This document shows, piece by piece, positions 23,199-39,170 of a DNA stretch of 64,000 nt; position 1 is the stretch's first letter; the number at the start of each line of letters is the position of its first letter. This DNA comes from an uncultured Thioclava sp. (GTDB taxonomy: Bacteria > Pseudomonadota > Alphaproteobacteria > Rhodobacterales > Rhodobacteraceae). Below the pieces are notes generated by a model. The model had not been told where the DNA came from, searched no databases, and saw only the letters and a program-made list of their open reading frames with translations. The stretch covers positions 1 to 64,000 of the forward strand of contig NZ_CAJYBT010000017.1 of assembly GCF_913064665.1 (NCBI RefSeq), given 5' to 3'. The translations under genes and the position numbers were made by a program.

Positions 23199-23282
23199 GC
23201 CCGAGTGGCGGAATGGTAGACGCAGCGGATTCAAAATCCGCCGATGCAAATCGTGCGAGTTCGAGTCTCGCCTCGGGCACCA
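23199..23282 (+). tRNA. tRNA-Leu (anticodon CAA)
   Basis: Acceptor stem GCCCGAG pairs with CTCGGGC, followed by A and an encoded CCA. The anticodon stem GCGGA/TCCGC closes the loop TTCAAAA, giving CAA. A long variable arm precedes the T arm containing GTTCGAGTC. At 84 bases it is a class II leucine tRNA reading UUG. Confidence 0.95.
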
Positions 23283-29301: not shown

Positions 29302-29970
29302 TTAGGCGGCCGGGCGGATCGCGTGCCGGGCGGTTGATAGAGGCATGGGGATCTTTGCACCGCCCATCTGCGCGCGCCGCGCGTTTGAAAATGCCACCGG
29401 CATTCGCAAGGCGGCATAGCTGCGCCCGTCCTCGTCATTGCGATAGACCGGGCCCATTCGGCTGACATCATAGCCCACCTGACGCAAGGCACGCATCAGG
29501 GCGAGCGATGACAGGCAGATCAGCTCCTCTGCGCCCCGAGCCATCGCGCGTTCGACCAGACCATCCACGATCATGCCAAGGCAGGCGGTGCGTTCAACCT
29601 GCGTGCTCAGCGCGTCTGAAATCACTAGCCGCGTGCATTCCCAGATGCGGTCCGAGGCGATGTCATCGGGTAGCACTTGCGCGGGGATATGGCCTAGCTT
29701 TCCCAGATGCGCGTCGCGCAGCATATAGGTGTTGGGGCCCCAGATCGCCGTGGTGGACATTGCGCGCGCGCCGCCCACAACATTGCCGTCTTTGAGGACG
29801 ATCGAATAATGCGCGAGGGGCGTGTCATATTGGTCCATCTCGACATCGCTATTGTGGGGAACGTCCCAGCCAAGCTGATCCACGAAGACTTTCTTGCGCA
29901 GGCGCAAGAAGTCGTAAAACGCGGTTCCATGTTGATGCAGTTGAGAAAATTCGAATGTTTTAGCGTGCAT
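29302..29970 (-). CDS. acyl-homoserine-lactone synthase, LuxI family (pair 1)
   Basis: 222 residues with the invariant LuxI residues in order. Arg and Phe appear in LRLRKKVFVDQLGWD, then Asp pairs in VEMDQYDTP near residue 44, Arg in VVGGARAMST, and Glu-x-x-Arg in WECTRLVI near residue 110. LuxI enzymes make N-acyl-homoserine lactones from SAM and acyl-ACP. AGGAGG lies six bases before the ATG. It lies 72 bases downstream of a luxR gene on the same strand, so the pair is arranged luxR-luxI. The C-terminal 20 residues are unusually Ala/Arg-rich. Acyl specificity cannot be read from sequence. Confidence 0.92.
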   Translation of the reverse strand: MHAKTFEFSQLHQHGTAFYDFLRLRKKVFVDQLGWDVPHNSDVEMDQYDTPLAHYSIVLKDGNVVGGARAMSTTAIWGPNTYMLRDAHLGKLGHIPAQVLPDDIASDRIWECTRLVISDALSTQVERTACLGMIVDGLVERAMARGAEELICLSSLALMRALRQVGYDVSRMGPVYRNDEDGRSYAALRMPVAFSNARRAQMGGAKIPMPLSTARHAIRPAA

Positions 29971-30042
29971 GTTAACCTCCTTTTGGATGGTTAATCACAA
30001 GCACTAATTGGTTAAAGAATTACCACCTTGAGTTGAATCGCG

Positions 30043-30651
30043 CTAAATGAGTCGCCTCGCGGATGCGATTGCCAGCAACTCGATGGCGTTCTTTGCGCCA
30101 AGTTTCCGGCAGGCCGAAGAGATGCGCGCCTTCACCGCGCTTTCCGAAATCGCCAGTTCTGCCGCAATCTGCTTCAACAGCAACCCATCGGCGCGCATCC
30201 GGATCGCTTCGGCCTCGGCATCCGTCAGGCTGGGGCCGCTTTGCCCGCGCGTGTGCAGCCGTTTGAGCATCGCAAACGTCTCGGTAAGCTCGCGATCATC
30301 GAACTCGCGATCGGCACGAAACAACACCGCATAACTGCGCCGCCCGACATCGGCATCGCCCCTGACCGAAATCGTCGCGCCGAAATTGAGGTTTAAATCG
30401 CGCGCCAAAGGAATCACGCCCGCCGGATCAGGCAACGCCAGTTCGCTCCAGCGGATTGCCCCCTGATTGCTGTAAATCCAGCGCATCGACGGGTCATGTA
30501 CGAACAACCCCCGTCGGGTGTAGATATCGACCCAGTTTGAATCGAGCGCGTTCATTTCCTCTTCGGGAAATGAATATCCAACCCGCAAGGCTACATAAAA
30601 GCCAGCAGGCGCAAGCGTCTGGAGGTAGGGCTGGCTTCGTTTCAAGGTCAT
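30043..30651 (-). CDS. LuxR-family quorum-sensing regulator (pair 1)
   Basis: 202 residues. The autoinducer-binding domain (about 10-130) keeps the pocket residues Trp, Tyr, Asp-Pro and Trp (NWVDIYTRRGLFVHDP, then IRWSEL). The C-terminal LuxR helix-turn-helix (about 140-200) contains LTDAEAEAIRMRADG and LLKQIAAELAISESAVKARI. It lies upstream of its luxI partner and divergent from the HTH-less LuxR homologue, 100 bases away. No strong ribosome site is seen before the ATG. A dyad at 30692-30712 in the shared promoter is a candidate binding site. Confidence 0.92.
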   Translation of the reverse strand: MTLKRSQPYLQTLAPAGFYVALRVGYSFPEEEMNALDSNWVDIYTRRGLFVHDPSMRWIYSNQGAIRWSELALPDPAGVIPLARDLNLNFGATISVRGDADVGRRSYAVLFRADREFDDRELTETFAMLKRLHTRGQSGPSLTDAEAEAIRMRADGLLLKQIAAELAISESAVKARISSACRKLGAKNAIELLAIASARRLI

Positions 30652-30691
30652 TCGCAGGTCAAGCTACTTGCGTTTCAAAAGGGTGATATTT

Positions 30692-30712
30692 AGTCTCTCT
30701 TCATTGGAGACT
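30692..30712. promoter_or_regulatory. 21-bp dyad, candidate lux-type box
   Basis: AGTCTC and GAGACT are perfect 6-bp arms nine bases apart. Lux boxes are imperfect dyads of about 18-22 bp, so the size fits. The site lies between the divergent luxR1 and the HTH-less homologue and could serve both. Confidence 0.35.
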
Positions 30713-30751
30713 TGGGGGCATTGGGACTTAACCTATGATTGTATTCGGCAT

Positions 30752-31177
30752 ATGAAAACCGAAATTCGACATTCGGTTGTGCAAATCCTGAACGAGACCG
30801 GGGCGCTGTGCGACTCAGGATACGCTTTCGCGCTTCATATCCGCTTTGCTCGGCCCAATATTTTGTATCGTACATACCCGCAAAGCTGGATTGATCACTA
30901 CGACGAACAGGGCATGATCGTCGAAGATCCGGTGGTGAAATGGGGCCTGAGCAAAACGGGGTTCGTGTATTGGAAAGATCTTGATGATCCTGCTGGGATT
31001 CTGGCGGATGCCGCAGCGCATGGTTTGACCAACGGGTTGACCTGCGCAGTGGGGGCGCTCAGTTCACGCTCGATTGCGGGATTCACCCGGTCGGATCGCG
31101 CTTTTAGCGCGGCCGAGGCGCAAAAACTCTTGGATATGACATCACAATTACATGATCTGACCGCAGAGACGCTTTGA
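30752..31177 (+). CDS. LuxR-type autoinducer-binding domain protein lacking the DNA-binding domain
   Basis: 141 residues covering only the LuxR N-terminal domain. The ligand-pocket residues are present (SWIDHYDEQGMIVEDP, then FVYWKDL), so it may still bind acyl-homoserine lactone. It is closer to the second LuxR (at 38.6 kb) than to the first: both share HIRFA, a YP..WI..Y..Q block, and SRSI.G near the end. The frame stops exactly where the linker to the helix-turn-helix would begin. I find no HTH in any frame downstream. The role could be ligand buffering or heterodimer inhibition, as TrlR does to TraR, but that is inference. The start at 30752 has no clear ribosome site. Confidence 0.75.
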   Translation: MKTEIRHSVVQILNETGALCDSGYAFALHIRFARPNILYRTYPQSWIDHYDEQGMIVEDPVVKWGLSKTGFVYWKDLDDPAGILADAAAHGLTNGLTCAVGALSSRSIAGFTRSDRAFSAAEAQKLLDMTSQLHDLTAETL

Positions 31178-31293
31178 TTGCCAGATCAGCCGGGGCAGGG
31201 CGATCGCCGCATCGCAGGCTCTTGGGGCTTTGCAATCAGCGTGCAAGGCGCTGTTCGTTATTGGCTAGAAGAAAACCCTATTTGATAACAGTC

Positions 31294-31311
31294 TTGTAAT
31301 CGCGCTGTTAC
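31294..31311 (+). promoter_or_regulatory. probable Pho box upstream of ugpB
   Basis: TTGTAAT, four bases, CTGTTAC is a 7-4-7 direct repeat close to the PhoB consensus CTGTCAT-N4-CTGTCAT. It lies 94 bases before ugpB, whose E. coli counterpart is in the Pho regulon. Confidence 0.5.
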
Positions 31312-31404
31312 ATAAGCAGACTAGGCAGCGTGGCGTGGGCGACCTCTCAGGTCGCAAGAGCATGAAATGCCAATCATATCCCGCTACCCACTTGGGAGGA
31401 AAAC

Positions 31405-32718
31405 ATGAAGAATTTTGCACTGGGCGCTCTTGTCGCCTCGTCGGCGCTGCTGTCGCCATTCGCGGCTTTCGCGCAGACTGACATTCAGTTCTGGCACGCC
31501 TTTACCGGACGGTTGGGTGAGTTGGTGGACGCGCAAGTCGCGCAGTTCAATGCCAGCCAAAGCGACTATAAAGTCGTGGCCAATTACAAGGGTAACTACT
31601 CGGAAACGCTCAATGCCGGGATCGCGGCGTTCCGCGCCGGAGAGCAGCCCGATATCTTGATGGTGTTCGAAGTCGGTACCGCCACGATGATGGCAGCCAA
31701 GGGCGCGATCAAGCCGGTCTATCAGGTGATGGCCGATGCGGGCGTGCCGTTCAATGCTGACGATTATATCGGCGCGGTGAAGGGCTATTACACGGATACC
31801 GATGGCAAAATGCTGTCGCTGCCGTTCAATTCCTCGACGCCGGTTCTTTGGGTCAATCGCGATCTGCTCGACAAGGCAGGCGTGGCCAAGGATGCCGATC
31901 TGAGCACCTGGGAAAGCATCGGTCCGGTGCTTGATAAACTCAAGGCGGCGGGCGTTGATTGCCCGATGACCACCGCTTGGCAAAGCTGGATCCAGCTGGA
32001 AAACCTGTCGGCCTATCACAACGTCCCGTTTGCCAGCAAAGAGAACGGCTTTGGCGGGCTCGATACCGAGCTGGAATTCAACGGCCCCGTGCAGGTCAAA
32101 CACATCCAGACCTTGGGCGATTGGGCCAAGAAGGGTGAGTTCATCTACAAGGGTCGTCGCAACGAGGGCGGGGCGGATTTCCGCGCTGGCTCCTGTGCGC
32201 TGTTCACCGAAAGCTCGGCGGGTTACGCGGGCATCAAGGCTGAAGCCAAGTTCAACTTCGAAGTCCATCCGCTGCCCTATTGGTCCGATGTCGCAGGCGC
32301 GCCGCAAAACACCATCATCGGGGGCGCCTCGCTTTGGGTAATGGCGGGCAAGCCGGCCGAGGATTACAAGGGCGTGGCCGAATTCCTGAGCTTTCTGTCC
32401 TCGCCCGAGGTGCAGGCGAAATGGCACCAGGACACTGGCTATCTGCCGATTACCAAGGCCGCGGCGGACCTGACGCGCGAGCAAGGCTTTTACAAAGCGA
32501 ATCCGGGCACCGATGTTGCAGTGATCCAGATGACCACGAAAGAGCCGACTGGCAATTCCAAGGGCATCCGTCTTGGCAATTTCGACCAGATCCGTTCGAT
32601 CATCGACGAAGAGCTGGAAGCCGTTTGGTCGGGTGACAAGACGGCGCAGGATGCGCTTGATACGGCTGTGACGCGGGGCAACCAGTTGCTGCGCCGCTTC
32701 GAACAAGCTAACCGCTAA
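31405..32718 (+). CDS. ugpB: sn-glycerol-3-phosphate ABC transporter, periplasmic binding protein
   Basis: 437 residues with a signal peptide (MKNFALGALVASSALLSPFA, cleaved probably after AFA). The mature start TDIQFWHAFTGRLGELVD matches UgpB-type extracellular solute-binding proteins. YSETLNAGIAAFRAGEQPDI and LPFNSSTPVLWVNRD are family blocks lining the glycerol-3-phosphate site. GGGAGG precedes the ATG. It heads the ugpBAEC operon behind a Pho-box-like repeat, fitting uptake of glycerol-3-phosphate or phosphodiesters under phosphate limitation. Confidence 0.92.
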   Translation: MKNFALGALVASSALLSPFAAFAQTDIQFWHAFTGRLGELVDAQVAQFNASQSDYKVVANYKGNYSETLNAGIAAFRAGEQPDILMVFEVGTATMMAAKGAIKPVYQVMADAGVPFNADDYIGAVKGYYTDTDGKMLSLPFNSSTPVLWVNRDLLDKAGVAKDADLSTWESIGPVLDKLKAAGVDCPMTTAWQSWIQLENLSAYHNVPFASKENGFGGLDTELEFNGPVQVKHIQTLGDWAKKGEFIYKGRRNEGGADFRAGSCALFTESSAGYAGIKAEAKFNFEVHPLPYWSDVAGAPQNTIIGGASLWVMAGKPAEDYKGVAEFLSFLSSPEVQAKWHQDTGYLPITKAAADLTREQGFYKANPGTDVAVIQMTTKEPTGNSKGIRLGNFDQIRSIIDEELEAVWSGDKTAQDALDTAVTRGNQLLRRFEQANR

Positions 32719-32778
32719 GACCAACCCTGTCGCGGGCGGCATTTGCGCTGCCCGCGATTTCCTTTTGCCGAGGCCGGA

Positions 32779-33660
32779 ATGGAAAAACGCGTCACCTTCA
32801 AGGGCTGGCTGTTGCCGCTTTTGCTGATCGCTCCGCAGCTTGTGATTTCGGGGGTGTTCTTTTTCTACCCCGCGGGCGAGGCGGTGTGGCAATCTTTGTT
32901 CATTCCCGACCCGTTCGGCCTGTCGATGCAATATGTCGGGCTGGGCAATTTCGAATACTTGCTAAGCGATCCCTATTACCGGGCCTCCTTTCTGACGACG
33001 GCGGTGTTTTCCACGCTGGTGACGCTGGTTTCGATGATCCCGGCGCTGTTTTTGGCGGTGTTGGCGGATCGGCTGGTCAAAGGGGCGGGGGCCTATCGCA
33101 CCATGCTGATCTGGCCCTATGCGGTGGCACCGGCTGTCGCGGGCGTTTTGTGGCTGTTCATGTTCAACACCCGTATCGGGATTGTCGCGTGGTATCTCGG
33201 CCTGCTGGGCTATGATTGGAACTACGTGCTCAACCAGAACGAGGCGATGGGGCTGGTCGTTGTGGCCTCGTCCTGGGGGCGCATCAGCTATAACTTCCTG
33301 TTCTATTTCGCCGCCCTGCAAGCTGTGCCGAAATCGGTGATCGAAGCGGCAGCGATTGATGGGGCGCGCTTTTGGCGGCGGTTCTTTACGATCGTGCTGC
33401 CGCTGCTGTCTCCGACCACGTTTTTCCTGCTGGTGGTCAATATCGTCTATGCGTTCTTTGAAACCTTTGGCGTCATTCACACGATCACCAGCGGCGGGCC
33501 GCAACAGGCCACCACGATCCTTGTCTACAAGGTCTATGCCGACGGGTTCGTCGGACAGGATCTGGGCTCATCTGCCGCGCAATCGGTGATCTTGCTGCTG
33601 GTCGTGGGGCTGCTGACGGTGCTGCAATTCAAGTTCATCGAGAAACGGGTGCATTACTGA
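32779..33660 (+). CDS. ugpA: sn-glycerol-3-phosphate ABC transporter permease UgpA
   Basis: 293 residues with about six membrane spans. The cytoplasmic EAA loop reads [20 protein letters not shown], which contacts the ATPase. The N-terminus [20 protein letters not shown] and the stretch [15 protein letters not shown] match UgpA. GAGG lies before the ATG. It starts 60 bases after ugpB and overlaps ugpE by one base (TGATG), indicating coupled translation of the two permeases. Confidence 0.93.
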
Positions 33661-34538
33661 TGGCAAACGCATCCACCCCCCTCAAAGAGCCGCCCCCCGG
33701 CATGGTCGAAAAGCGCGGGCGTGGCCTGTGGTTTACCCATGCGCTGATGATTTTGGGCGTGCTGGTGATCTTCTTCCCGATCTGGCTGGCCTTTGTGGCC
33801 TCGACGGTGCCGCAAGCCGCGATCACCCATCCGCCGATGCCGCTGCTGCCGGGCGATCAGTTCCTCACCAACTATAAACGCGCGCTGTTTTCGGGCGTGA
33901 ACGTGCCGGTGGCAACGATGTTGCTGAACTCGCTGGTGATGGCGATGGGGATTGCCGTGGGCAAGATCGCGATTTCGATCCTGTCGGCCTTTGCGATCGT
34001 CTATTTCCGCTTTCCGGGGCGCAATTTCTTCTTCTGGCTGATCTTTATCACGCTGATGCTGCCTGTCGAAGTGCGCATCGTGCCGACCTATCAGGTGATT
34101 GCCGGCTTTGGCATGCTCAATAGCTATTCGGGGCTGATCTTGCCGCTGATCGCCTCGGCCACAGCGACGTTTCTGTTTCGCCAGTTCTTCCTGACGGTGC
34201 CCGATGAGCTGGCCGAGGCGGCCCGCGTCGATGGCGCGCGCCCGATGCGGTTTTTCGTCGATATTCTGCTGCCGATGAGCCGCACCAATATCGCAGCACT
34301 CTTCGTCATTCTCTTTATTTACGGCTGGAACCAGTATCTCTGGCCGCTTCTGATCACCACCGATCCCTCGATGAACACGGTCGTCATGGGCATCAAACAG
34401 ATGTTCCCCTCGGGCGATGATATCGCGGATTGGCCGGTGATCATGGCGACCTCGATCTTGGCGATGATCCCGCCGGTGATCGTGGTGATTTCGATGCAGA
34501 AACTCTTCATCCGCGGTCTTGTGGATAGCGAGAAATAG
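33660..34538 (+). CDS. ugpE: sn-glycerol-3-phosphate ABC transporter permease UgpE
   Basis: 292 residues with about six spans. The EAA loop is [20 protein letters not shown]. The C-terminal [12 protein letters not shown] and the [12 protein letters not shown] segment match UgpE proteins. It forms the heterodimeric channel with UgpA. Eight bases separate its stop from ugpC. The fourth-gene ATPase completes a canonical importer. Confidence 0.93.
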
Positions 34539-34546
34539 GACAGGCA

Positions 34547-35605
34547 ATGGCAACGGTCGAACTGGACAACGTCAAGAAACGCTTTGGCTCCACCGAGGTG
34601 ATCCACGGCGTCAGCACGCAAATCGAGGATGGTGAATTCATCGTGATTGTCGGCCCCTCGGGCTGCGGGAAATCCACGCTGTTGCGCATGGTCGCGGGGC
34701 TGGAAAGCGTCTCTGAGGGCGAGGTGCGCATCGGTGGCAAGCGTGTCAACGAAATTGAGCCGATGGATCGCGACATCGCGATGGTGTTTCAGAATTACGC
34801 GCTTTATCCGCATATGTCGGTGCGCCAGAACATGGGCTACGGGCTGAAAATTGCGCGGCTGCCAAAGGCCGAGATCACCGCCAAGGTGGAGCAAGCCGCC
34901 GCCCTGTTGCAACTGGGTGAGTTGCTGGATCGCAAGCCCAAGCAACTATCGGGCGGGCAGCGGCAGCGCGTCGCAATGGGGCGCGCCATCGTGCGCGAGC
35001 CGGCGGTGTTCCTGTTTGACGAGCCGCTCTCGAACCTTGACGCCAAGCTGCGCGTTCAGATGCGTGTCGAGATCCGCGAATTGCAGGCCAAGCTGGGTAT
35101 CACTGCGCTATACGTGACCCATGATCAGGTCGAGGCGATGACCATGGCTGACCGGATGATCGTGATGAATGCTGGCGTGGCCGAGCAGATCGGCACGCCA
35201 TTGGAGGTCTATGAGCGCCCCGTCACGATCTTTGCCGCACAGTTTATCGGCAGTCCCTCGATGAATATCCTGCCAGCCCAGATCAAGGGCGGGCAGATCA
35301 AACTGGGGGACGCGGTGCTGGGTCAATGCAGTCTGCCCGATGGCCCCGTCAGCTTTGGCATCCGCCCCGAGCATTTGCGCCCCGACCCGCAAGGCGCCAT
35401 CGCGCTTGAGGTGCATCTGGCTGAGCCATTGGGTGCCAATACTCTGTTGCATGGCGTGCTTGCTGGTTCGGGTGAGACGATGACCGCCGCTTTGCCGGGC
35501 GTGCATCGCAGCAATATCGGGCGTGAGATGTTGAAACTCACCGCCGATCCCGCGCATTTCCACTTTTTTGACTCCGAAAGCGGCAAGCGCATCGAACCCG
35601 TCTGA
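34547..35605 (+). CDS. ugpC: sn-glycerol-3-phosphate ABC transporter ATPase UgpC
   Basis: 352 residues. Walker A is GPSGCGKST at residues 36-44, the Q-loop is MVFQNYALYPHM, the signature is LSGGQRQRVAMGRA, and Walker B is VFLFDEPLSNLDAKLR. The C-terminal OB-like domain (about 240-345) includes GIRPEHL and is typical of the MalK/UgpC group, where it can receive regulatory input. Last gene of the operon, followed by a strong hairpin. Confidence 0.94.
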   Translation: MATVELDNVKKRFGSTEVIHGVSTQIEDGEFIVIVGPSGCGKSTLLRMVAGLESVSEGEVRIGGKRVNEIEPMDRDIAMVFQNYALYPHMSVRQNMGYGLKIARLPKAEITAKVEQAAALLQLGELLDRKPKQLSGGQRQRVAMGRAIVREPAVFLFDEPLSNLDAKLRVQMRVEIRELQAKLGITALYVTHDQVEAMTMADRMIVMNAGVAEQIGTPLEVYERPVTIFAAQFIGSPSMNILPAQIKGGQIKLGDAVLGQCSLPDGPVSFGIRPEHLRPDPQGAIALEVHLAEPLGANTLLHGVLAGSGETMTAALPGVHRSNIGREMLKLTADPAHFHFFDSESGKRIEPV

Positions 35606-35733
35606 CTTTGGGGCGGGGAAGATTGCGCGCCATCGGTTCGCTTGCGCGAAACATGACAGTCCCGCCAAGATGCGTTTGCGTCTCTTATATGCGTGCAAGC
35701 CCATGAGGCATCGCGGCGGTGCCCAGAAAAGTC

Positions 35734-35762
35734 GCCCGCGCGAAACCTGATTTCGCGCGGGC
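35734..35762. terminator. strong hairpin between ugpC and the fasciclin gene
   Basis: A perfect 12-bp stem (GCCCGCGCGAAA/TTTCGCGCGGGC) with a 5-base loop between two convergent genes. On the minus side it is followed by GACTTTTC; on the plus side no T-run follows. It is probably a two-way transcript end. Confidence 0.6.
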
Positions 35763-35802
35763 AAGCCGATGAAAGCCACCAAGGTGTGTGGCCAAGTTCG
35801 GG

Positions 35803-36285
35803 TTACATCTTGGGCATGATCACCGAGTCGATCACATGGATCACGCCATTGCTGGCCTCGATATCAGCCTGCGTCACCGTCGCGCCGTCGACCATCACGG
35901 CGGGATCGGTCTTGATCGTGACCTGTGATCCCTGAACGGTCGCAGCCATCAAACCATCGCTCAGATCGCCTGACATCACTTTGCCCGGAACGACGTGATA
36001 GGTGAGGATCGCGCTCAGTTTGTCTTTGTTTTCAGGCTTGAGCAAATCCTCAACCGTGCCCGCAGGCAGCTTGGCAAAGGCCGCGTCGGTGGGGGCAAAG
36101 ACGGTGAAAGGGCCTTCGCCCTTCAGCGTCTCGACAAGCCCAGCGGCCTGAACGGCGGCAACAAGCGTTTCAAAATTGCCTGCAGCAACGGCAGTATCGA
36201 CGATATCCATATCGGCCGCATGAACGGGGGTGGAAACGAGGGCGGTGCCAGCAACAATCGCCGCGATGAAGGTTCTTCTGAGCAT
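35803..36285 (-). CDS. secreted fasciclin-domain protein
   Basis: About 160 residues: a signal peptide ([17 protein letters not shown], cleavage after VHA) and one fasciclin domain (PF02469). Family blocks are [17 protein letters not shown] near residue 65, LTYHVVPG near 100, and [12 protein letters not shown] at the end. Such small FAS1 proteins are periplasmic or surface proteins linked to adhesion. I chose the ATG at 36285, with GGGAG eight bases upstream; an ATG two codons earlier is too close to that site. Convergent with ugpC. Confidence 0.88.
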
Positions 36286-36479
36286 ACTCATACTCCCTGG
36301 TTTGAACACGTGTGGATCGTGTTAGGGTTACGTCGAGGCGAGAAAAATGGATCACAGGAAGATCACGGATGCGCACGCCTTCGCGAGAATTTGGGACCCC
36401 GCGCATGGCCTTTGTGCGAAAACCTGCCGATCAAAGACGTGGATCGCGCGCGACAGAGATCGCTCAAAAGCCGCGCTTA

Positions 36480-37088
36480 TCAGCGCACTGCGTCAAGCGC
36501 GCCCAGTTCCTGCAAGATCGACTGCGTTACTTCCTGCGGGTTGGCCCCACCAGTCTTTCGCGGGCAGGCAGATCACGCGCCATCCAAAGGCCTCCAAAAA
36601 AGTCGCGCCTGCGCTGAACATTTCTCCAATTTCGAGGCTGTGAAACAGGTCTGGGCGATCAATCAGCACCGTGAGTTTAAAGTGATTGCTGATCGGGCGC
36701 GCAAGAAGATCGGCTTCTTATCGGGCAAAAGCGCGCCTGCGGGCCCGTGCAGCATTTCGCGCGGCGAACGATGGGTGCGGGTCTTTATGAATCCGTCTTC
36801 CAAGGCGCGCCTGGCCCAAACATAGGCCGCTTTGCGCCCCCGATCATGGGGCGTCAAGTCGCGATCGGGCTTTTCCATCAGCGTGATATCCGTATCAAAG
36901 CGCGCAATCGCGCGCAGCGATGGCCATGCGCGCCTCTTCAAACATGCGCGACCCGATTGCGGCAGGGTGCGGATCAGCGAGCGCAGGATTGCCTCGTTCA
37001 GCACGGCGGTATCAAGCGCGGGCGCCTGCAGATCAAGCTGGCGCAAGCAGGTCCAGATTGCTGCGGGTGCAGCCGCGAGCGGGGCCAA
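36480..37088 (-). pseudogene. truncated, frameshifted remnant of an unrecognised gene
   Basis: The minus strand can be read as one protein only across two frame changes. A first segment (about 37088-36730) contains RGRKAAYVWARRALEDG and HGPAGALLPDKK. A second (about 36665-36540) contains TVLIDRPDLFHSLEIGE and FLEAFGWRVICLPAKDWW. A third ends in LQELGALDAVR and a stop. Each piece has typical coding composition. The 5' end is missing and meets another gene remnant at about 37090. I do not recognise the family. Confidence 0.5.
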
Positions 37089-37090
37089 TT

Positions 37091-37231
37091 CTTGATGGCG
37101 CCGAGATCGCGATTTTCGATCGCTCTTACGACGCGCTCAAGATCAAGACGCCACGCTGTCGTCAGGCGGTGGGCAACCTGTCGGGCGGCAACCAGAAACA
37201 GATCGTCATCTTCCTGGGGGCGTGCAAATGA
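37091..37231 (+). pseudogene. fragment of a ribose/xylose-type sugar ABC transporter ATPase
   Basis: A 46-residue piece containing VGNLSGGNQKQIVIF, the ABC signature of the second ATPase domain in RbsA/MglA/XylG proteins, preceded by LKIKTPRCRQ. It begins abruptly, has no start codon or upstream domain, and stops shortly after the signature. Its TGA overlaps the T-run of the neighbouring cold-shock terminator. It is a remnant left by deletion or recombination. Confidence 0.7.
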
Positions 37232-37253
37232 AAAAGGGCGCCCGAAGGCGCCC
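37231..37253 (-). terminator. intrinsic terminator of the cold-shock gene
   Basis: A perfect 7-bp stem (GGGCGCC/GGCGCCC) closing a TTCG tetraloop on the minus strand, then five T. It lies 24 bases past the csp stop. Confidence 0.92.
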
Positions 37254-37276
37254 CGTTCCGAATTCGGTCAAACCGT

Positions 37277-37483
37277 TCAGGCGAGCTGAAGGTTCGCAGC
37301 CGACTCACGGCCGTCACGGCCGGATTCGACGTCATAGGTGACTTTCTGATCGTCGTTCACCGAGGTCAAGCCAGCACGCTCAACAGCGGAGATGTGCAGG
37401 AAGACATCTTTTCCGCCGGTGTCGGGTGCGATAAAGCCGAAGCCTTTAGTTGCGTTAAACCATTTCACGGTACCAGTGGCCAT
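37277..37483 (-). CDS. cold-shock domain protein
   Basis: A 68-residue single CSD protein. RNP1 is KGFGFIAPD and RNP2 is DVFLHIS, both intact. MATGTVKWFNATKG is the typical N-terminus of alphaproteobacterial CspA-like RNA chaperones, so I chose the ATG at 37483, which has AGGAG eight bases upstream. An ATG eight codons earlier lacks a site. A long upstream gap suggests a long 5' leader as in other csp genes. Ends at a strong terminator. Confidence 0.93.
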   Translation of the reverse strand: MATGTVKWFNATKGFGFIAPDTGGKDVFLHISAVERAGLTSVNDDQKVTYDVESGRDGRESAANLQLA

Positions 37484-37918
37484 CGTGAGATCTCCTTTAG
37501 TATTCAACCTGTTCGCGGAAGTGCAACAGCGTGGCGCAGTCGGCCAAGATCGAGTTCGCTGAAGTCCGGTAGGGAACGCAGGGGATCGATATAGGAAACG
37601 TAGCCCGCCCCTTATGACAGAGCGCCGCCCGCTTGTCTATGCCTTATATCGCCCATCTTGGATCCATACTGACGACTGCCGCACGACTTGGCGGTTTTGC
37701 GCCGACGGATCCAGATTCGTTGCAAACAAAAAAGACTGAGAAACCTGTGTTGCGCTTTTCCGAGATCGCCCGAGGGGCAGGTGTATGGACGGCCGATCAT
37801 ATATCGATCTGGCCAGGGAGGCGCCTTATCGACCCAAGCGCAGGTCACAGGGGCCGGGCGATCAAGTTGCGAAAACCGCGCGCGCACAAGCAGCTGCGCG
37901 CGCGAGCCTGCAACAAAA
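37484..37918. other. 435-base gap between csp and luxI2
   Basis: It holds the csp promoter and probably a long csp leader. Near 37,790-37,815 an imperfect dyad with GGCC ends around an AT-rich centre is visible. No gene is convincing. I see no terminator for the luxI2 transcript. Confidence 0.5.
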
Positions 37919-38506
37919 TCAATGCATCTTCGTTGCCATGTTGATGTTCACGCAAACGCTGCGCGACCCTTCGATCTCAAGAACCGGACCCGCCGCAACG
38001 CAATCAAGCCCAACGCGCCGCGCAAGGCGGGGCGAATTTTCGGGGATCATGCCGATCACGCTCGTGGCTCCCAATTGACGCGCTGAAATCACCATTTCAT
38101 TAATCAACTGCATCTGAACACGCATCCTCAGCTTCGCCGGGACACTGTCACTTACGAAAACCCTTGAGCTTTCCCAAATATGTGACGCGGTCGGAGCCTC
38201 GTCGAAAAGCAGGTTTTCTGGAATCGTCTCAAGCAAGCCGCGCTGTGCATCACGGATCATATAGGTGTAGATTCCGCATTGATGCGTGGTGGGCGTCAGG
38301 CGAACACCCGCCATGACGATCCCACGATCATGGACCGCAACCCAGCGGCTGGCGGGGGTGTCATATTGGTCGAATTCCATCCCGTCGGCTTCGGGGAGTT
38401 TCCATTTGTTTTGCACAATGAATGCACGATGTCTTGCGCGAAACATGTTTGCGAAAAGTTCGCCATGGTTGTGTAGATTTTTGTAAGAAAGGGTTGTGAC
38501 TTCCAT
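37919..38506 (-). CDS. acyl-homoserine-lactone synthase, LuxI family (pair 2)
   Basis: 195 residues with the LuxI invariant residues: Arg and Phe in MFRARHRAFIVQNKWK, Asp in EFDQYDTP near residue 45, Arg in AGVRLTPTT, and Glu-x-x-Arg in WESSRVFV near residue 112. It is clearly diverged from the first LuxI, so the two may make different signals. GGAGG lies eight bases before the ATG. It lies 52 bases downstream of luxR2 on the same strand. The C-terminus lacks the extra tail of pair 1. Confidence 0.92.
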   Translation of the reverse strand: MEVTTLSYKNLHNHGELFANMFRARHRAFIVQNKWKLPEADGMEFDQYDTPASRWVAVHDRGIVMAGVRLTPTTHQCGIYTYMIRDAQRGLLETIPENLLFDEAPTASHIWESSRVFVSDSVPAKLRMRVQMQLINEMVISARQLGATSVIGMIPENSPRLARRVGLDCVAAGPVLEIEGSRSVCVNINMATKMH

Positions 38507-38558
38507 TGGAGTGCCTCCGTCTGGGGTTGAAAAAACCGGTCAGATGGGCCGCCACGTG

Positions 38559-39170
38559 CTAAAGGTATTGATATTCCCTAGCCTTGCGCAAAGCCTCCGA
38601 TGTCGTGCGCGCTTCCAATCGAATCCGCGCCGATTTCAGGCGTGCTTTCAATGCGCTCTCCGATATCCCGAGTTTTGCTGCAGCAGCAGTGTGCCGATCC
38701 CCATTCGCGACACACTGAAGTGCCTCGACTTGAGCTTTCGTCAACTCGGATGGAGGTTCCGCCGCAACATGCAGCCGAGCCGTAATTTCGCTCAGTTCGG
38801 ACAATTCTTCATCGTTGAATTCACGATCAGTGTGGCTGATTCCAACGATGGATCGCGACGTGATCGGGCCGTAAGAAGAGACCGCGCCATATTTCAGGCC
38901 ATAGCTTGCCGCTTTGGCAATCACACCAAACGGATCTGGCAGCGGAATTTCGCTCCACCGCGTGGTTCCAGCCGTTCCGATTCCCCAAAACACCAAGGGA
39001 TCTCTGAGATAATACGCCTGGTCGTTGTAAAATTTGATCCAGGCGCTGGGATACGAGCTTTCATAAACAAGCGGGCTGGCAAAGCGAATGTGCAGCCCAA
39101 CGCTATATCCGCAGGGCGCAAGCTGTTGGAGTTCGGAAAAGGGCACAGTGAGGGCTTTTGAAATGGACAT
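38559..39170 (-). CDS. LuxR-family quorum-sensing regulator (pair 2)
   Basis: 203 residues. The autoinducer-binding domain keeps Trp, Tyr, Asp-Pro and Trp (AWIKFYNDQAYYLRDP, then TTRWSEI). The C-terminal HTH (about 143-200) contains LTKAQVEALQCVANGDRHTA and LGISESALKARLKSARI. Upstream of the ATG is a short perfect dyad, ACTTA-AA-TAAGT, but no good ribosome site. It is the closest relative in the window of the HTH-less LuxR protein at 30.8 kb. It forms a luxR-luxI unit with the next gene. Confidence 0.92.
   Translation of the reverse strand: MSISKALTVPFSELQQLAPCGYSVGLHIRFASPLVYESSYPSAWIKFYNDQAYYLRDPLVFWGIGTAGTTRWSEIPLPDPFGVIAKAASYGLKYGAVSSYGPITSRSIVGISHTDREFNDEELSELSEITARLHVAAEPPSELTKAQVEALQCVANGDRHTAAAAKLGISESALKARLKSARIRLEARTTSEALRKAREYQYL

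Follow-up and report, generated by a model that had tools for sequence, protein, structure and literature searches.

A stand-alone autoinducer-binding protein coupled to one class of LuxI synthase in the Rhodobacteraceae, a candidate CerN-like antagonist of its LuxR neighbour

This study concerns a 64,000-nucleotide stretch of DNA from an uncultured Thioclava sp. (contig NZ_CAJYBT010000017.1; hereafter the window) and, within it, a 141-residue LuxR homologue, the product of positions 30752-31177, that is here named S. S lacks the helix-turn-helix (HTH) of LuxR regulators, and its gene lies divergent from, and 100 bp apart from, that of a full-length LuxR (LuxR1), which is followed by the gene of an N-acyl-homoserine lactone (AHL) synthase (LuxI1). 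Across the family genomes surveyed, the coupling of S to this one synthase class is near-obligate. We favor, with moderate confidence, a reading in which S would act as a CerN-like, AHL-dependent antagonist of LuxR1, its divergent CerM-like neighbour, based on the conservation of the HTH-less form, the coupling of S, LuxR1 and LuxI1, the intact binding pocket, the domain model, purifying selection and the grouping of LuxR1 with CerM. In Cereibacter sphaeroides, the HTH-less LuxR homologue CerN, the only relative of S with a studied function, together with AHL binds CerM and weakens the hold of CerM on DNA, and CerM itself binds DNA without AHL (PMC11655674).

Structure of the S locus

The open reading frames (ORFs) and Pfam matches of the window bear out an earlier note on this DNA, which had described two luxR-luxI pairs in the same orientation together with a 141-residue HTH-less homologue. 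The first pair belongs to the three-gene module: luxI1 (29302..29970, - strand) encodes its AHL synthase (PF00765, 55.5 bits), and luxR1 (30043..30651, - strand) a full-length CerM-like LuxR with a binding domain (PF03472, 43 bits), an HTH (GerE, 38 bits) and the pocket residues WYDPWG. A divergent intergenic region of 100 bp (30652..30751, no strand applicable), read directly from the sequence, separates luxR1 from the CerN-like S gene (30752..31177, + strand), whose ATG start at 30752 is backed by the N-terminal alignment of close orthologues.

In a Pfam scan, S matched PF03472 alone (59.5 bits), with no HTH and no second family; the C-terminal HTH (GerE), a membership feature of canonical LuxR proteins, is thus missing from it. 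The AlphaFold2 model predicts a complete domain with a last helix at residues 120-138 (mean predicted local distance difference test score 95.2, predicted template modelling score 0.89), and the best folds in the PDB for this model were RhlR, QscR and SdiA. The pocket residues, which the earlier note had described as kept, are all there: W46, Y50, D59, P60, W74 and G95 are the six TraR pocket residues listed in PMC11655674.

Conservation within the genus

Close HTH-less orthologues of S were found in 11 of the 16 genus genomes (the source genome included), the other ten being 60-76% identical to the window copy, and each of these 11 genes has a LuxR1 orthologue divergent from it, with LuxI1 behind that orthologue. 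The suggestion that the HTH-less form is kept beside luxR in other genomes therefore holds for the genus and for many genera of the family, and the outcome that would have marked a recent truncation, orthologues that always carry an HTH, did not occur in the orthologue search. Median ratios of nonsynonymous to synonymous substitution rates (dN/dS) for the genus genes were 0.12 for S, 0.14 for luxR1 and 0.09 for luxI1, calculated from 10 genus loci (the eleventh, a near-copy, was left out); for S, 14 of 45 pairs were usable, the other 31 being saturated or too close. S is under purifying selection.

The genes surrounding the module were compared in the ten 11-kb loci of other genus genomes (L058-L067), which are long enough to judge. 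Of the genes that flank the module in the window, the MocR-type and Hint genes adjoining luxI1 recur only in L066 and L067, and the ABC transporter genes adjoining S in none of the ten; weak transporter matches elsewhere (28-50%) look generic. Eight genus genomes carry an extra, paralogous S with a CerM-type LuxR of its own (L042-L049). A further S-type gene was observed in G010, G003, G014 and G008 (L050-L053), with no luxR or luxI detected within the 8 kb fetched around it.

Distribution across the family

The survey took in 76 S-bearing loci from 65 genomes, of which 53 are from outside the genus; all S-bearing genome numbers are lower bounds. The loci were chosen by likeness to S and by frame length, and the counts of layouts are therefore conditional on the presence of S; the hidden Markov model profiles that classified the loci had themselves been built from these loci. 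The most frequent layout was that of the window, luxI1-luxR with a divergent S (49 of 76). Nine loci have a CerI-like luxI plus a second luxR that is CerR-like, nine have a divergent luxR and S with no luxI in the fetched stretch (L150, with its long overlapping frame, is counted here), and one has a CerR-like luxR and no luxI; S stands alone in five and shares one strand with luxR in three. A divergent CerM-type partner luxR thus lies beside S in 68 of the 76 loci, and an equal number of intergenic regions was extracted. All 76 frames end no more than 21 residues past the binding domain, and 73 of 76 S proteins keep the WYDPWG pocket intact, vs. 61 of 71 partner LuxRs.

Viewed from the synthase, a LuxI1-type match (E<=1e-38, a cut-off of the analysts' choice) was present in 45 of 295 family genomes, and S was found at the locus in 42 of these 45, including G109 and G198, where S follows luxR-luxI on one strand. 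Two of the three loci without S are a contig that stops just past luxI (G181) and a genome in which S and luxR lie on another contig (G294); the third (G215) is taken up below. In a class-wide sample, matches (E<=1e-15) occurred in 2 of 289 genomes, both of the same family, and phage records gave no match. A search for related loci with the single protein reached two.

Relationship of S to the LuxR groups

As a point of reference, locus L129 of genome G066 was taken to be the cerN/cerM locus of C. sphaeroides, because 2.9 kb of G066 matches plasmid pC of C. sphaeroides 2.4.1 at 100% and L129 agrees with the published CerM W57F change and the published CerN-CerM identity of 31%. In L129, S is divergent from a CerM-type luxR, after which come a CerR-like luxR and luxI. 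LuxR2-like regulators (T2, denoting a LuxR2/GtaR-like LuxR) are here labelled GtaR-type; we infer this label from the T2 LuxR of C. sphaeroides (L172), which has no luxI within 4.5 kb, fitting the published occurrence of gtaR without gtaI in that species (PMC11655674).

A tree of 178 binding domains needed three changes to explain four groups (S, CerM-type, GtaR/LuxR2-type and CerR-type), the minimum possible; its CerR branch was very long, and its bootstrap had yet to settle. The CerM-type group (71 rows) forms one side of a 100/100 branch and holds both LuxR1 (L010_R) and CerM (L129_R), and the GtaR-type group forms one side of a 97/60 branch. The S block, to which both CerN (L129_S) and the window S belong, is contiguous, yet no single branch sets it apart (two changes, 0% of bootstrap trees), and the other groups branch from it. 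S never groups with its neighbouring luxR, to which it is 21-40% identical (median 33%).

The divergence of S follows that of its partner. With one module per genus (n=53), S and partner distances correlated at r 0.67, the highest of 1000 permutations reaching 0.18, and among modules with luxI1 (n=41) the correlation was 0.52 for S and LuxI and 0.43 for the partner LuxR and LuxI. Comparison with the T2 LuxR found elsewhere in the same genomes drew on 29 T2 regions plus the LuxR on contig C48 of the source genome, which represents that genome in place of LuxR2; dropping modules without luxI in reach left 27 genomes. In these, the correlations were 0.71 for S and partner, 0.49 for S and T2, and 0.64 for partner and T2. 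In a partial Mantel test, S and partner given T2 retained 0.59 (none of 2000 permutations as high), and S and T2 given the partner fell to 0.08.

Intergenic DNA

A lux box shared by the regions between S and luxR was considered and dropped. The palindrome with 6-bp arms in the window region had no counterpart in the orthologous regions that were tested, and the published CerM motif stood only weakly above the shuffle level; its core AAGACR occurred in 5 of 50 regions vs. 7.0 in shuffles. As a separate observation, a CAACCNNAAAGCGA-like element starts 22-47 bp ahead of the S domain in 23 of 50 regions (<=3 mismatches) vs. about 4.8 in mononucleotide shuffles, for instance in L161, L080, L126, L132, L154 and L159, and is missing from the window copy. 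This element is a lead only, the pattern having been picked by eye from the same set.

Other lux genes of the window and source genome

The second pair of the window lies 6.7 kb beyond S, outside the module, and comprises the synthase gene luxI2 (37919..38506, - strand; PF00765, 50.7 bits) and luxR2 (38559..39170, - strand; PF03472, 31 bits). The GerE score of LuxR2 (17.8 bits) is below the cut-off of 23.5, and its C-terminal part still aligns with the HTH of LuxR1. Between a fasciclin gene and luxI2, about 1.6 kb (36310-37918) holds no recognisable gene, and five ORFs tested there gave no Pfam match at E<=0.01. An Rfam scan of the whole window gave a transfer RNA at 23199-23279 as its sole match.

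The source genome has five PF03472 and four PF00765 places, the window genes included, and no additional, paralogous S with a LuxR partner is among the five PF03472 places. A third luxR-luxI pair lies on contig C48, its LuxR 52% identical to LuxR2 and its LuxI 61% identical to LuxI2; the GerE score of this LuxR (L055:5376-5990) is 17 bits, likewise under the Pfam cut-off of 23.5. The product of a lone luxI on contig C44 (L056) shares about 50% identity with LuxI2, and that contig gave no LuxR match; a LuxR on contig C33 (L057) has strong Pfam scores of 86.2 and 46.7 bits, with no LuxI match on the contig. The gene after the C48 luxRI presumably resembles an AAA ATPase, comparable to the helicase position in the topology B arrangement of roseobacters, and we take the ORF upstream of luxRI in L055 to be rpoA. 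In topology B, a putative helicase gene follows luxRI and a crotonyl-CoA reductase gene precedes it (PMC3824088); the latter gene was not noticed in L055.

Proposed mechanism and alternative explanations

In the favored antagonist reading, LuxR1 would occupy its DNA sites without signal at low density, as extrapolated from C. sphaeroides. LuxI1 would produce an AHL that S would load, and the S-AHL complex would then bind LuxR1 through the binding-domain fold common to both, the AHL dependence of this step being carried over from the same species. LuxR1 would thereby be taken off the DNA, and the density signal would act by relief, a direction again modelled on C. sphaeroides.

Several points weigh against this reading. 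CerN (L129_S) and the window S belong to separate S subclades whose only junction is an open fork. CerM carries W57F, which the CerN authors suggest may be important (PMC11655674), whereas LuxR1 keeps W57 and the change occurs in 1 of 71 partners. The mechanism may differ from that of CerN/CerM, given an identity of only 43%, the separate subclades and the other kind of synthase at the loci. LuxR1, its pocket intact, may also sense AHL itself, and linkage alone could produce part of the co-divergence of S and LuxR1. One genus genome (G002) has a LuxR1 orthologue (65%) with no S in the 8.5 kb around it, and in G215 a LuxI1-type gene is accompanied by a weakly matching luxR but by no S. The published CerM motif (<=2 mismatches) was found in 22 of 50 S-luxR regions vs. 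about 15.8 in shuffles, a weak excess. Finally, the experimental evidence of function comes from CerN and CerM.

The closest alternative retains the contact between S and LuxR1 but changes its consequence: S could remain in a standing complex with LuxR1, stabilising it or shifting its sites as a co-regulator or chaperone. Such a complex would also fit the tight coupling between S and its partner, and the level of CerM is notably lower in a cerN mutant, which the authors took as possible stabilisation (PMC11655674). We consider it unlikely, because genetics, gel shifts and a reporter indicated net antagonism between CerN and CerM, whose pull-down worked only with AHL (PMC11655674), and because the pocket kept in 73 of 76 S proteins points to signal sensing. 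A second possibility, that S is an AHL sink which sets a threshold by holding the LuxI1 signal and leaves LuxR1 untouched, agrees with a complete binding domain and pocket without an output domain. It is improbable in view of the physical, AHL-dependent binding of CerN to CerM (PMC11655674) and of the co-divergence of S with LuxR1-type proteins, though linkage could explain the latter. That S is a functionless, degenerate LuxR remnant or a recent truncation, as its missing HTH could suggest, is scarcely credible: HTH-less S is found in at least 65 genomes with a dN/dS of about 0.12 in the genus, none of the 76 loci has a frame reaching further than 21 residues beyond the domain, and no S groups with its neighbouring luxR.

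The earlier note had proposed that S binds the signal of pair 2 or partners with LuxR2, to which the related C48 LuxR may be added, and thereby links the two circuits. Its premise is correct, as S is closer to LuxR2 (37.1% identity over 132 residues) than to LuxR1 (30.6% over 121), and a LuxR 52-54% identical to LuxR2 is present in 11 of 11 S-bearing genus genomes; the uncorrected correlation of S with GtaR-type LuxRs (0.49) also appears to favor a link. The proposed partnership itself did not withstand the comparison of genomes. LuxR1 orthologues (>=63%) occur in all 11 S-bearing genus genomes plus G002, whereas LuxR2 orthologues (>=62%) occur in G000, G002, G005, G006 and G011, of which only G000 is among the 11; the orthologue is thus missing from 10 of 11 S-bearing genomes and present in four genomes without a close S orthologue. 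Correction for the partner, moreover, removed nearly all of the correlation. A link through LuxR2 is therefore as improbable as the AHL sink. The absence of LuxR2 from most S-bearing genomes, together with the co-divergence of S with LuxR1-type proteins, makes it more likely that the resemblance between S and LuxR2 reflects old kinship rather than partnership.

Implications

Extending the antagonist reading beyond the window, we tentatively propose that the whole LuxI1 class of the Rhodobacteraceae could be a three-gene system, in which S would be the main AHL receptor and LuxR1 the signal-free DNA-binding output, the two being co-inherited with the synthase family-wide. Accounts of quorum-sensing loci focus on luxI and on full-length luxR genes. 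If one synthase class of a large environmental family is almost always found together with a receptor of this kind, models of a simple LuxI-LuxR loop would be incomplete, and CerN/CerM would become one instance of a broader design that makes a clear, testable prediction. A description of the S-luxR-luxI module was not found in literature searches, which covered open-licence papers and returned mostly listings, and the available text of two roseobacter reviews does not mention a stand-alone binding-domain partner (PMC3824088, PMC3907830). The CerN paper, in its available text, checked synteny in three genomes and reported gtaR alone as conserved (PMC11655674). The module joins a CerN-like protein to a LuxI of its own and lacks CerR; CerN/CerM having already been published, the locus alone is modestly new, and the main interest lies in the near-obligate coupling of S to one synthase class.

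Comparison with known systems

By similarity, LuxR2 and the C48 LuxR fall on the side of GtaR/GtaI and the topology B luxRI of roseobacters (PMC11655674, PMC3824088). These are full-length regulators, unlike S, and an S gene was seen in none of the 11 such loci inspected. TrlR of octopine-type Ti plasmids, a LuxR homologue that likewise lacks the HTH, acts on a full-length partner (PMC13043044, PMC11655674). The earlier note had drawn this analogy, which stands as an idea of inhibition and fails as to origin: TrlR is 88% identical to TraR, an AHL-requiring activator (PMC11655674), whereas the identity of S to LuxR1 is about 31% and the two do not group together.

The nearest known system is CerN/CerM, from which the window module differs in the genes that follow. 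The C. sphaeroides locus goes on with cerR-cerI, whereas in the window module LuxI1 lies directly behind LuxR1 without CerR, and the synthase of L129 scores 65 bits with the LuxI profile vs. 270-290 for most LuxI1-type proteins. In both the window and L129, an HTH-less gene adjoins and is divergent from a CerM-type luxR, the short and full-length proteins are about 31% identical, and the short one carries the WYDPWG pocket. Between the two loci, identity is 43% for the window S and CerN and 45% for LuxR1 and CerM.

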